Positions 1-56,651 of a DNA stretch of 64,000 nucleotides are shown piece after piece. The position numbers and the translations under genes are program-made. The notes beneath the pieces were generated by a model. The model had not been told where the DNA came from. It did not search any database and saw only the letters and a program-made list of their open reading frames with translations. Numbering within the stretch: position 1 is the stretch's first letter; each line of letters starts with the position of its first letter. The stretch comes from Flavobacteriales bacterium (GTDB lineage: Bacteria; Bacteroidota; Bacteroidia; Flavobacteriales_G; Salibacteraceae), in NCBI GenBank assembly GCA_013204105.1, contig JABMOM010000023.1, positions 1-64,000 on the forward strand, written 5' to 3'.

Positions 1-2
1 AG

Positions 3-76
3 TGACCCCGACAGGATTCAAACCTGTAACCCTCAGAGCCGAAATCTGATATTCTATTCAGTTGAACTACGGGGCC
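3..76 (-). tRNA. tRNA-Arg (anticodon TCG)
   Basis: On the minus strand the 74 bases fold as a full cloverleaf. The acceptor arm is GGCCCCG pairing with CGGGGTC, with A as discriminator. The anticodon arm is TCAGA/TCTGA around the loop TTTCGGC, so the anticodon is TCG (codon CGA, arginine). The T arm contains GGTTTGAATCC. No CCA is encoded. A TATATTTG promoter element lies just upstream on the minus strand at 89-96. A partial copy of the 5' end and its upstream flank recurs at 323-400. Confidence 0.95.
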
Positions 77-88
77 AGAAAAGAGCGG

Positions 89-96
89 CAAATATA
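89..96 (-). promoter_or_regulatory. -7 promoter element of tRNA-Arg(TCG)
   Basis: TATATTTG on the minus strand fits the Bacteroidetes -7 consensus TAnnTTTG and lies 12 bases before the tRNA 5' end. No clear -33 TTTG is seen at the usual spacing. The same octamer precedes the other tRNA-Arg gene and the tRNA remnant. Confidence 0.7.
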
Positions 97-321
97 GGAA
101 GGCTTGAAGAGATCTGTGGGCAGGGAGTTGAAATTTTCGATGCGGGTAGAGTGGCTTGCGCAAACCGAAGGAGACGGTTTGGTTGAGGGGTAAGGTAAGT
201 GGGGAGAGTCCACGGATCCGATCCGCCAGCCGGCGGACTATTCAGCTCCGAAAAAGCAGAAATCTTTGATTTCATTCTTTTTAGAGAGTCCACGGAGCTG
301 CGCGCAGCGCAGCATCGGGAT

Positions 322-338
322 TGAACTACAGGGCCAGA
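322..338 (-). pseudogene. Remnant 5' end of a tRNA-Arg gene
   Basis: On the minus strand the bases read GGCCCTGTAGTTCAA, matching the first 15 bases of tRNA-Arg(TCG) except for one C-to-T change, and then diverge. The upstream flank, including TATATTTG at 348-355, is copied as well. The rest of the tRNA is not contiguous; a CTGAATAG like the tRNA D-loop appears about 80 bases further along, which suggests disruption by an insertion, but this part is weak. Confidence 0.6.
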
Positions 339-347
339 AAAGAGCGG

Positions 348-355
348 CAAATATA
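348..355 (-). promoter_or_regulatory. Orphan TATATTTG promoter element
   Basis: A duplicate of the tRNA-Arg(TCG) promoter region that now faces only the tRNA remnant and the structured interval down to position 77. If active it would transcribe a short non-coding RNA on the minus strand toward the intact tRNA-Arg gene. Confidence 0.45.
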
Positions 356-401
356 GGAAGGCTTGAAGAGATGTGTAGTTAGGGCGATGAAATTTTCGAT
401 T

Positions 402-623
402 GGATTACTTCGTGATCCTAGTGGTCCGAGAAGTGGGTCGATTCGGATGTCCGCTGACGCTTCATCCTTTATTTCGTGAGGCAATGAGGTGAATCTATTA
501 TTCCTTGGGACAGATGAGCTAATGAGCTAATGCGCCAATGAGCTGATGAAAACAGGATTACTACGTGATCCTTTCTTGTCCGAGCAGTGGATCAAACCCG
601 GTTATGTCCGCTTGCGCGTCCAT
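402..623. repeat. Imperfect direct repeat pair (402-464 and 555-623)
   Basis: Both copies run GGATTACTxCGTGATCC, then GTCCGAGxAGTGG, then ATGTCCGC, then a CAT end, with small insertions between the shared blocks. The order and spacing of shared blocks argue for a decayed duplication rather than chance. Confidence 0.6.
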
Positions 624-713
624 GTGTGTTTTTTCTTTTGCAAGCACTCGAGCTAGCTCGGCGCTTGGAAAAGAAAAAACCCGGTCTTCGCTTTAGCGAA
701 GCCGGGTTTGATC
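590..713. repeat. Nested palindromic element
   Basis: Three inverted pairs are nested or chained. An outer pair is GATCAAACCCGG (590-601) with CCGGGTTTGATC (702-713). An inner pair is GTTTTTTCTTTTGCAAGC (628-645) with GCTTGGAAAAGAAAAAAC (663-680). A hairpin is AACCCGG-CTTCGC (678-691) with GCGAAG-CCGGGTT (696-708), one base bulged. The outer left arm can pair with either side, so alternative folds exist. It lies seven bases from the end of tRNA-Arg(ACG) and may also stop that transcript. Confidence 0.65.
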
Positions 714-719
714 ATCTAG

Positions 720-793
720 TGACCTCGGCAGGATTCAAACCTGCAACCTCCACAGCCGTAATGTGGTGCACTATTCAGTTATGCTACGAGGCC
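720..793 (-). tRNA. tRNA-Arg (anticodon ACG)
   Basis: On the minus strand 74 bases fold as a cloverleaf. The acceptor arm is GGCCTCG pairing with CGAGGTC (one G-U), discriminator A. The anticodon arm is CCACA/TGTGG around TTACGGC, giving ACG, read as ICG for CGU/CGC/CGA after A34 deamination. The T arm contains GGTTTGAATCC. CCA is not encoded. Confidence 0.95.
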
Positions 794-32812: not shown

Positions 32813-33604
32813 ATGAGTGATAACCTTAAAATAAGAACAATGGCCGAAATGGCCGCCGCAGGTGAATCCCCCGAGGTGCTCTTTTGGGTTGGGTGCATGG
32901 GGAGCTTTGATGATCGCGCCAAGAAGATCACGAAGGCTTTTGCGAAATTGCTGAATCGAGCGAACGTGAAGTTTGCGGTACTAGGTACCGAAGAGTCTTG
33001 TTCGGGTGATCCTGCAAAGCGGGCAGGAAATGAGTTCTTGTTCCAGATGCAAGCATTTGCGAACATTCAAGTGCTGAATGCCTATGAGGTGAAGCGCATC
33101 GTCACGGCGTGTCCTCATTGTTTCAACACCCTTAAAAACGAATACCCTGAGCTCGGTGGAAACTATGAAGTGATCCACCACACCCAATTCATCAATACCT
33201 TGTTCAAGGAAGGGAGGCTCAACGTAGAGGGAGGTTCCTTCAAAGGCAAGCGCATCACCTTCCATGACCCATGCTACTTGGGTCGAGCAAATGATGTCTA
33301 CGAAGCACCCAGAGAAGTGCTGCAGAAGTTGGACGCGGAGCTAGTGGAAATGAAGCGATGCAAGCAACGCGGACTCTGCTGTGGAGCAGGTGGTGCGCAA
33401 ATGTTCAAGGAAGCCGAGAAGGGCGACAAAGAAGTAAACGTCGAGCGCACGGAAGATGTGATCGCATCGAAGGCCGACATTGTCGCCGCCGGATGTCCTT
33501 TTTGCAACACGATGATGACAGATGGTGTGAAACACTTCAACAAAGAAGATGAGATCAGCGTTAAAGACATTGCAGAACTGATTGCCGAAGCAGGAGACCT
33601 ATGA
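32813..33604 (+). CDS. CCG-domain iron-sulphur protein (HdrB/GlcF-like)
   Basis: A 263-residue soluble protein with two CCG-like cysteine modules: CPHCFNTLKNEYP and CCGAGGAQMF, plus WVGCMG and AAGCPFCNTMM. Such modules bind non-canonical iron-sulphur clusters in heterodisulphide reductase and glycolate oxidase. The track start at 32753 is in the leader; ATG 32813 (MSDNLKIRTM) fits. The upstream 80 bases contain an imperfect palindrome. It pairs with the preceding membrane protein and overlaps the next gene by four bases. Confidence 0.88.
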   Translation: MSDNLKIRTMAEMAAAGESPEVLFWVGCMGSFDDRAKKITKAFAKLLNRANVKFAVLGTEESCSGDPAKRAGNEFLFQMQAFANIQVLNAYEVKRIVTACPHCFNTLKNEYPELGGNYEVIHHTQFINTLFKEGRLNVEGGSFKGKRITFHDPCYLGRANDVYEAPREVLQKLDAELVEMKRCKQRGLCCGAGGAQMFKEAEKGDKEVNVERTEDVIASKADIVAAGCPFCNTMMTDGVKHFNKEDEISVKDIAELIAEAGDL

Positions 33605-34104
33605 TAGAAAGCCCACAGACCGTTACAGATTTAAACTCGTTATCCGAGGGAGCTCGGGTATGGATATTTCAATCTTCCAAGCCATTGGTAGGGGATATGC
33701 GCACGCAGATCGCTTCGTCGCTGATTGCCTTTCTCAAGGACTGGGCTGCTCATGGAAAGAGCCTTTTCGCTGCCTTTGAGATTCGCTACGATCGATTCAT
33801 CGTTATAGGTGTAGATGAGGCTATGGCGCAGGCAACGGGCTGCTCTATCGATAAACTTATTAAGACCATTCAGGCCATCGACTCAAGCTATGGACTGGAT
33901 CTGTTGGAGCGGATGAAAGTTGCGTACCGTGACGGTGAGGACATAAAGGAAGTGGATGCAAATGCATTCGCCAAAATGCTAGCCGACGGTCAAGCCGATC
34001 AAGACACGCCAGTCTTCAATAACGTCGTAGAGTCGATCGGAGAACTTAAGACCTCATGGGAAACAACCGTGAAAGAGAGCTGGCATCGGAATCTGCTTCC
34101 GTAA
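33601..34104 (+). CDS. Conserved protein of unknown function ('ABC transporter ATPase' by annotation tradition)
   Basis: A 167-residue soluble protein; ATG overlaps the preceding stop (ATGA). Similar Bacteroidetes proteins are commonly labelled ABC transporter ATPase, but I see no Walker motifs or signature, so that name is unsupported. VWIFQSSKPL and WAAHGKSLFAAFEIRYDRFIV are the most conserved-looking parts. The tight coupling to the CCG-domain protein suggests a role with the iron-sulphur proteins. Confidence 0.75.
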   Translation: MIESPQTVTDLNSLSEGARVWIFQSSKPLVGDMRTQIASSLIAFLKDWAAHGKSLFAAFEIRYDRFIVIGVDEAMAQATGCSIDKLIKTIQAIDSSYGLDLLERMKVAYRDGEDIKEVDANAFAKMLADGQADQDTPVFNNVVESIGELKTSWETTVKESWHRNLLP

Positions 34105-53661: not shown

Positions 53662-54609
53662 ATGCTGAAATATCTCGTACAATGCTCTGAAATAGGGGCG
53701 GGAACGCGTGGCAGTAGCCTAGGACCCGATGCCATCATGTTGGCGTCATTAAATTCTGAAAGCGAATTATTTAATCGATATCCCTTCGAGCAGATCCCTG
53801 ATTTGAACGATTCGTTGTTTGAACCTACGTCTACACCGAACGCTTTGCGCATTAAACAAATGCACGGGACCTGGTCTGCACAGGCCGAATCGGTGATGCG
53901 AAATATGAAGCTTGGAAAGGTGCCCATCGTGATCTCCGGCGACCACGCTTCGGCTGGTGGAACCATCGCAGGAATAAAAATGGCGCACCCTGATAAGCGA
54001 CTGGGCGTAGTTTGGATTGACGCGCACGCGGACCTGCACTCTCCCTATACTACCCCTTCTGGCAACATCCATGGCATGCCACTAGCGGCTAGCATCGGCG
54101 ACGACAACCTGGACATGAAGCGCAATGATCCGAACGAAGAGACCGTGGATTTTTGGGAGCGGATGAAGGTCATGGGTGGAATATCACCTAAGATCCTCCC
54201 GCAAGATTTGATTTTCGTCGGTGTACGCGACACCGAGAAAGAAGAGATCCATCTCCTCGAAAAGCACAACATCATCAACTATGAAGTAGCGGAGGTCGAC
54301 GACATGGGAATGCACAAAATCGGCAAAGAGATTCTAGAAGAATTGAAGGACTGCGAAATCATCTACGTTTCGTTTGACGTGGATAGTATGGACCCAGATG
54401 AGGTCTCTTACGGGACGGGTACGCCTGTTCCAAATGGCATTGCTCCTGAGCAAGCAAAGAATTTGCTCAGCGTGCTGCTCGCCGATCCAAAAGTGTGTTG
54501 CTTTGAGATGGTGGAAGTGAATCCACTGCTGGATAAGAAAGGAAATAAAATGGCCACTACCGCCCTCTCCATCTTGGAGAAAGCTGTAGAAATAATGGAA
54601 AACCGATGA
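53662..54609 (+). CDS. Arginase family hydrolase
   Basis: A 315-residue manganese ureohydrolase. Metal ligands are in SGDHASAGG, DAHADLHSP and SFDVDSMDP, and the substrate loop includes EVNPLLD. It most likely cleaves arginine to ornithine and urea, though agmatinase or formiminoglutamase cannot be excluded by eye. The stop overlaps the argS ATG (ATGA), so catabolism and charging of arginine share a transcript. Confidence 0.9.
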   Translation: MLKYLVQCSEIGAGTRGSSLGPDAIMLASLNSESELFNRYPFEQIPDLNDSLFEPTSTPNALRIKQMHGTWSAQAESVMRNMKLGKVPIVISGDHASAGGTIAGIKMAHPDKRLGVVWIDAHADLHSPYTTPSGNIHGMPLAASIGDDNLDMKRNDPNEETVDFWERMKVMGGISPKILPQDLIFVGVRDTEKEEIHLLEKHNIINYEVAEVDDMGMHKIGKEILEELKDCEIIYVSFDVDSMDPDEVSYGTGTPVPNGIAPEQAKNLLSVLLADPKVCCFEMVEVNPLLDKKGNKMATTALSILEKAVEIMENR

Positions 54610-56651
54610 TGGACATCACCCAAAAGATTGCAATTGCAACGGCCGATATCCTGAAGATGTCGTACGACCATGCAGTGGAAACTCACGACGTGCAGATAGA
54701 CGCAACGCGAAAAGAGTTTGAAGGCGACTATACCGTGGTCATCTTTCCCTACCTGCGTGCCTTGAAGATGAAGCCAGAGGAAGCAGGCGATGCACTTGGT
54801 GATCAACTCCTAGCTGCCGTACCTGAAATTGAGTCCTTTAACGTCATCAAGGGTTTCCTGAATCTTTCGCTCAGTGCTGCCTATTGGAGCGAAGCACTTG
54901 CTTCGATCTCCTCAGATGGGCAATGGTTGACGCGGGGCAAAAGTGGAGGCTTGTCCTTGGTGGAGTACAGCTCGCCGAATACGAATAAGCCGCTTCACTT
55001 GGGGCACCTGCGTAACAATTTCCTCGGCCACTCTGTGAGCCTGATCAAGGAATTCACGGGAAATGAGGTGATTAAAACACAGATCATCAACGATCGCGGC
55101 GTACACATTTGTAAAAGCATGCTCGCTTGGAAAGAACTTGGTAACGGAGAGACTCCTGATACTAGCGGATTGAAGGGTGATAAACTAGTTGGTAAATATT
55201 ATGTGAAATTCGATCAAGCATTTAAGAAAGAACAGGAGAAGATAGAATTGAACCGTCTTCAATTGTCGGATTCAAATTGGAGTGATTCTGAGAACCTCTT
55301 TATTTCAGGAAGTGCCGCCTCTGCAGACACCATTTCAAGTGATGAATGGCACATAGGTTCTATGGACTTACAGAACACCCTAAAGCAAGTTTACGATGGG
55401 GACGAATCCGCTCTTGACGGGCTTACCCTTAAAGGAAAACCGTTAACGACTGGATTCAAGGATAGTCTTCTAAGCTATGCTGAATTTATTAAAGATTCAG
55501 AAACCGAAACCTACGAACAAGAAGCGTCGAGAAGAGAAGCTATAAAGAATAACAGTCCACTTTATCAGAGAGTACGAAAGATGCTGATTAAGTGGGAGCA
55601 AGGTGATCCGGAAACCATTGCCCTCTGGAAGATGATGAACAGTTGGGTCTACGAAGGGTTTGACGAGACCTATGCCCGCATGGGTGTCAGCTTTGACAAG
55701 CTCTACCACGAGTCTGAGACCTACCTGAAAGGAAAGGATATCGTGAAGGTCGGACTCGAAAAAGGAATCTTTTTCACGAAAGACGACGGTTCGGTTTGGG
55801 TGAATTTAGAAGCGGATGGCCTCGATCAAAAGCTATTGCTACGCGCTGATGGTACCACGGTGTACATGACCCAAGACATCGGTACCGCGGCTCAACGTCA
55901 AGAGGATTACCCTTCTCTTCAACAAATCATCTATACCGTAGGCGATGAGCAGGATTACCACTTCAAGGTGCTCTTCTTGATCCTTGAAAAATTGGGGTAC
56001 GATTGGGCACCTGCGTGTCGACACTTGAGCTACGGGATGGTAGATCTGCCTTCGGGTAAGATGAAGTCTCGCGAAGGAACGGTGGTAGACGCGGATGACC
56101 TGATGGCGGAAGTGGTAGACGCAGCCAAGATTTCATCAGAAGAAAAGGGCAAGCTGGATGAGATGGAACAAGAGGAGCAAGAGCAGCTCTTCGAAATGCT
56201 CGGGATAGGCGCTTTGAAATTCTATTTGCTGCGCGTTGACCCACGCAAGCGCATGATGTTTGATCCGGAAGAATCTGTTTCTCTCAACGGAGATACGGGC
56301 CCCTTCGTTCAATATACCCACGCACGCTGTAAAGCGGTGCTGAGAAAGGCCGGGGAATTCCAACCGGGAGCTCCCGAACGCCTGTCTGAAAAAGAACGCC
56401 AACTCCTGCGGGCATTGATGCAATTTAGAACCGTCATGAACGGCGCCGCTGAAGACATGAATCCAAGCGCGGTGGCAAGCTATTGCATCGACCTGGCGAA
56501 GATGTACAACCAATTTTACCACGACCTCCCCATTCTCAAAGCAGAGGATGAAGAGGTGAAGGGATTCCGATTGGCGCTGACGAAGCTCACTGCTGAGACC
56601 ATTGCTACTTCAATGGGGTTGCTGGGTATCCGGGTGCCAGAGCGGATGTGA
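54606..56651 (+). CDS. argS: Arginine--tRNA ligase with a large internal insertion
   Basis: A 681-residue class I synthetase that charges tRNA-Arg. HIGH motif is HLGHLR (about 131-136) and the KMSKS-like loop is GKMKSREGT. The C-terminal anticodon domain (TGPFVQYTHARC onward) is intact. Usual bacterial length is about 580-600; here residues about 212-300, between FKKEQE and the LIKWEQGDPE block, are extra, Ser/Asp-rich, and about 42% GC (counted by hand over 300 bases at 55261-55560) against about 53% in the next line. It is not an intein. Start may be ATG 54606 or 54609. Confidence 0.95.
   Translation: MMDITQKIAIATADILKMSYDHAVETHDVQIDATRKEFEGDYTVVIFPYLRALKMKPEEAGDALGDQLLAAVPEIESFNVIKGFLNLSLSAAYWSEALASISSDGQWLTRGKSGGLSLVEYSSPNTNKPLHLGHLRNNFLGHSVSLIKEFTGNEVIKTQIINDRGVHICKSMLAWKELGNGETPDTSGLKGDKLVGKYYVKFDQAFKKEQEKIELNRLQLSDSNWSDSENLFISGSAASADTISSDEWHIGSMDLQNTLKQVYDGDESALDGLTLKGKPLTTGFKDSLLSYAEFIKDSETETYEQEASRREAIKNNSPLYQRVRKMLIKWEQGDPETIALWKMMNSWVYEGFDETYARMGVSFDKLYHESETYLKGKDIVKVGLEKGIFFTKDDGSVWVNLEADGLDQKLLLRADGTTVYMTQDIGTAAQRQEDYPSLQQIIYTVGDEQDYHFKVLFLILEKLGYDWAPACRHLSYGMVDLPSGKMKSREGTVVDADDLMAEVVDAAKISSEEKGKLDEMEQEEQEQLFEMLGIGALKFYLLRVDPRKRMMFDPEESVSLNGDTGPFVQYTHARCKAVLRKAGEFQPGAPERLSEKERQLLRALMQFRTVMNGAAEDMNPSAVASYCIDLAKMYNQFYHDLPILKAEDEEVKGFRLALTKLTAETIATSMGLLGIRVPERM

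Follow-up and report, generated by a model that had tools for sequence, protein, structure and literature searches.

A probable mosaic argS gene carrying an orphan insert of about 90 residues in a Flavobacteriales bacterium

The arginine--tRNA ligase gene (argS) of a Flavobacteriales bacterium, encoded within a 64,000-nucleotide stretch of DNA (hereafter the window), is likely a mosaic in which a tract of ~465 nt (codons ~174-328) was imported by recombination from the argS of a bacterium with lower GC content. The likeliest donor would be a congener beyond the sampled ones, related to G008 and G012 among these, and its ArgS would have borne, on the tip of one helical hairpin of the catalytic half, an extra segment of ~90 residues. 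The crossovers may have occurred where the sequence is conserved (around HICKSMLAW and around KWEQGDPE), and such a placement would account for the retention of both the reading frame and the catalytic motifs.

The open reading frame is translated into 681 residues with zero internal stops and belongs to the class I ArgS family, as evidenced by a TIGR00456 match of 393.9 bits (cut-off 261.65), PF00750 and PF05746 matches above their cut-offs, a HIGH motif and a C-terminal DALR domain. The HLGH signature and the further invariant columns of the alignment are intact. A sequence-only reading of the window had described an internal Ser/Asp-rich, low-GC insertion in this protein, and the comparison with relatives bears it out. 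ArgS of the nearest relative, G009, has 591 residues and is 86% identical over residues 1-213 and 92% identical over residues 309-681 of the window protein, and in the G009 gene just 15 nt separate the two matched flanks. Codons 214-303 have a GC content of 0.42 (0.39 at third positions, GC3), and Ser, Thr, Asp and Asn together make up 36% of the insert vs 20% of the remaining ArgS. Read in the other frames, the insert is filled with stops. We examined 60 relatives and found ArgS in 54 of them; the insert is missing from G009 and from every other ArgS of the genus or family that covers the site. The same reading had also proposed that the insertion is lineage-specific and tolerated, which agrees with its absence from the congeners and with the intact motifs. 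Relatives of equal ArgS length, which would have marked an old ordinary domain, were not encountered, yet the site varies in length in several Bacteroidia families.

Table 1. Coordinates of argS and of the features in and around its divergent tract, numbered from the first position of the window.
Feature	Position	Strand	Evidence
argS, arginine--tRNA ligase, 681 aa	54606..56651	+	translation, TIGR00456 equivalog, Pfam tRNA-synt_1d/DALR_1, AlphaFold2 (AF2) model vs PDB
Left junction block, likely crossover zone	55104..55132	+	29 nt identical to G008, exact-match scan
Divergent tract, read as recombinant, approximate boundaries	55125..55590	+	nt identity to G009, GC3 drop, informative sites
Left arm, homologous ArgS (KELGNGETPDTSGLKGDKLVGKYYVKFDQAFKKEQ), nearer G008/G012 than G009	55133..55235	+	nt identity
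Orphan insert, ~90 residues beyond short ArgS, residues ~212-310	55239..55532	+	absent from all relatives compared
Predicted disordered linker in insert, residues 228-249	55287..55352	+	AF2, pLDDT <50
Predicted small helical cap in insert, residues 252-300	55359..55505	+	AF2 models
Right arm, second hairpin helix (REAIKNNSPLYQRVRKMLI)	55533..55590	+	0.38-0.57 nt identity to all congeners

As a correction to the earlier description, which dealt with the added residues, the anomaly extends beyond them: the low-identity tract runs from ~55125 to ~55590 and takes in homologous ArgS codons, ~38 upstream and ~18 downstream of the insert. In a codon alignment with G009, nucleotide identity is 78-97% outside the tract and falls to 37-75% at the homologous codons inside it, where GC3 is 0.17-0.4 vs 0.67-0.83 in G009. 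Overall GC is 0.37-0.46 across ~55100-55600, with surroundings at ~0.50. This holds even at KLVGKYYV, where the protein is conserved but most codons are changed (36-nt windows, nucleotide identity 0.64, GC3 0.17 vs 0.83). Since the anomaly reaches the homologous ArgS flanks, replacement of a whole tract is favoured over a plain insertion.

Almost the entire length of the 64 kb is syntenic with G009, which allowed a sliding comparison of 3680 windows of 30 codons from 63 syntenic orthologous ORFs. The argS tract holds the eight windows of lowest nucleotide identity as well as the seven with the largest GC3 drops, the extremes of both falling in windows over 55131-55265; the anomaly exceeds chance. 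Among the next most divergent places is the ORF at 33601-34101, whose 3' end (33931-34101) has a nucleotide identity to G009 of 0.64-0.68 and a GC3 that is not shifted downward.

The two arms of the tract differ in their affinities. At the left junction the exact match extends over 29 nt with the low-GC congener G008 and over 17 nt with G009. Over 123 nt, the left arm (about 55100-55240) shares 82% of its nucleotides with G008; the figure is 79% for G012 and 71% (over 100 nt) for G009. Control stretches of argS flanking the tract, by contrast, have G009 as their top match, and codons 1-150, which precede the left arm, reach 77-95% identity with G009 but 35-75% with G008. Informative sites that distinguish G008 from G009 take the G008 state in the left arm, and the best segment reached z=10.2, where 2000 permutations gave no more than 5.9. 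The left arm thus combines a contiguous tract, an affinity to a different lineage and a signal beyond chance, the marks of a mosaic gene, whereas the right arm is unlike every sampled congener. The right arm is no nearer to G008 and G012 than to G009, which tells somewhat against a single donor of the whole tract.

Under the name of intragenic microdiversity, short variable stretches of 20-500 bp inside genes are described for E. coli, S. aureus and S. pyogenes at the species level; most of them are replacements, neither insertions nor deletions (PMC2884548). The argS tract resembles these cases in being a short, in-frame and probably replaced segment of matching size inside a conserved gene (PMC2884548), and differs from them in that the exchange would be between species, would affect an essential aminoacyl-tRNA synthetase and would have brought in an orphan segment. 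If the recombination account is right, argS would offer a clean and recent case of a short segment replaced from another species inside an aminoacyl-tRNA synthetase that is essential and single-copy, with ~90 residues added and the motifs kept. It would also mark an ArgS loop that accepts large additions, which would be useful for protein engineering, and would advise caution with ArgS-based gene trees and signature indels. The mosaic ArgS is a real, though probably minor, curiosity.

An artefact of assembly could in principle produce the same picture. If co-occurring congeners share exact words flanking the hairpin, the assembler may have followed the path of a congener, and the insert would then be real but belong to the ArgS of another organism. 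The 29-nt block identical to G008 at the left junction would suit such a switch, and the source genome, in 46 contigs, looks like a draft. Nevertheless, both joins preserve the frame and the motifs, the assembly holds one argS only with a listed contamination of 0.18%, and exact matches of the window to sampled congeners besides G009 do not exceed 17 nt near the right join. We regard a chimera as unlikely.

Two helices of the catalytic half flank the insertion point, which follows GKYYV, precedes the KWE motif and has long been variable in length in several Bacteroidia families. Although 74 of 80 ArgS loci in a species collection have essentially standard length here, several Bacteroidia lineages carry 20-63 extra residues at the same protein position, the KGD...WE hairpin: 36-37 in the G059 and G043 families, 41 in G023, 44 at locus L049, 57 in G114 (locus L152) and 63 in G712 (locus L142). 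Inserts of several lineages look unrelated, among them those of G114 and G712. With +90 residues the window insert is the longest seen, and a sequence relation to the others is not demonstrable; an insert-only HMM of the G059/G043-type inserts scored the window insert no higher than shuffled sequences, even though the position is the same. Such a hot spot of length change, where the inserts of several lineages look unrelated, would also suit an insertion of ~270 nt at the hairpin tip within the lineage itself, after which the flanking helices, not imported, evolved fast to fit; the right arm without a congener match points the same way. Adaptation at the protein level, however, fails to explain the synonymous and GC3 changes in conserved upstream codons and the affinity to G008, and we hold this course of events to be quite improbable.

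Structure prediction with AF2, run on 48 ArgS sequences, gave a model of the window protein with a mean pLDDT of 89.9 and a normal ArgRS fold (TM normalized to the target 0.76-0.85 for the top hits among PDB ArgRS structures). In the model the insert extends the first hairpin helix and continues into a linker and then a cap. The cap is predicted with moderate confidence; its pLDDT is ~67-83 in the full model and mostly 69-80 when the insert is folded alone, and a fold search with the insert alone returned no PDB or viral match. The insert probably sits on the protein surface at the hairpin tip. Judging from the secondary structure of the model and the intact motifs, it may be tolerated rather than required, with a near-neutral effect.

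Compatible with a mosaic origin, the insert may alternatively be an adaptive domain that contacts tRNA, binds a partner or alters sensitivity to ArgRS inhibitors and so drove the fixation of the recombinant. Repeated gains of length at the hairpin and the small part of the insert that is predicted to fold would fit a function of this kind, but the insert is species-unique, partly disordered by prediction and without signs of function from family, fold or conservation, which makes adaptation very unlikely. Equally doubtful is the broader proposal that selection favours diversification at the hairpin tip of Bacteroidia ArgS, with the orphan cap as a functional module (an interface for a partner, tRNA or inhibitor) spread between congeners by recombination.

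The insert has no demonstrable relative in Pfam, NCBIfam or the PDB, and its best match in PHROGs has E=0.27. Searching the insert protein against 396 genomes of the phylum gave two matches at chance level (E 0.002-0.007 per genome), and viral contigs, plasmids and phages gave zero. The G059, G043 and G114 families gave three weak matches (E 0.0045-0.009) and nothing more. A pattern scan of 85,462 species, a kind of search that detects close relatives only, did not recover the insert, and the same type of scan with the flanks included, limited in the same way, found only ArgS loci without it. An intein was considered and rejected, as the insert is not matched by the splicing-domain HMM or by any Pfam or NCBIfam family.

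The sequence-only reading had further likened the insert to the palindromic in-gene elements of Rickettsia (RPE), which measure 105-146 bp (PMC2229807). Like an RPE, the insert is an in-frame addition to a conserved gene; unlike one, it is longer (~270 nt) and unrepeated, and the flanks are replaced too. No inverted repeats were found in 55050-55650, where the sole repeat around the insert is one pair of direct repeats at chance level, and the proposed check for mobility turned up no second copy in its own genome. A mobile palindromic or MITE-like element, despite the in-frame position inside a conserved housekeeping gene, is scarcely credible given the missing inverted repeats, copies and relatives and an anomaly wider than the insert.

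An argS bearing the insert was found neither in the phylum genomes, viral contigs, plasmids and phages nor in the 85,462-species scan or the families with long inserts. The split argS of G008 was considered as an insert-bearing donor and ruled out, the interruption being a gap of Ns and the hairpin ordinary. This run of Ns (L008, G008:C221, ~1400-1500) has duplicated ends and is a scaffolding artefact; it involves no frameshift. The congener G011 carries, beside an ArgS of the genus type, a second and more divergent one (C22:2066-3754) that is 56-59% identical to that of the window; the listed contamination of this genome is 4%.

At the start of the window (2-793) lie two tRNA-Arg genes (TCG and ACG) ~0.7 kb apart. 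A link between this locus and the insert had been raised as speculation but is not supported, as G009 has the same TCG/ACG pair together with an ordinary ArgS; the pair is ordinary. In G009 the two genes are ~3.4 kb apart, so the intervening DNA differs between both species.
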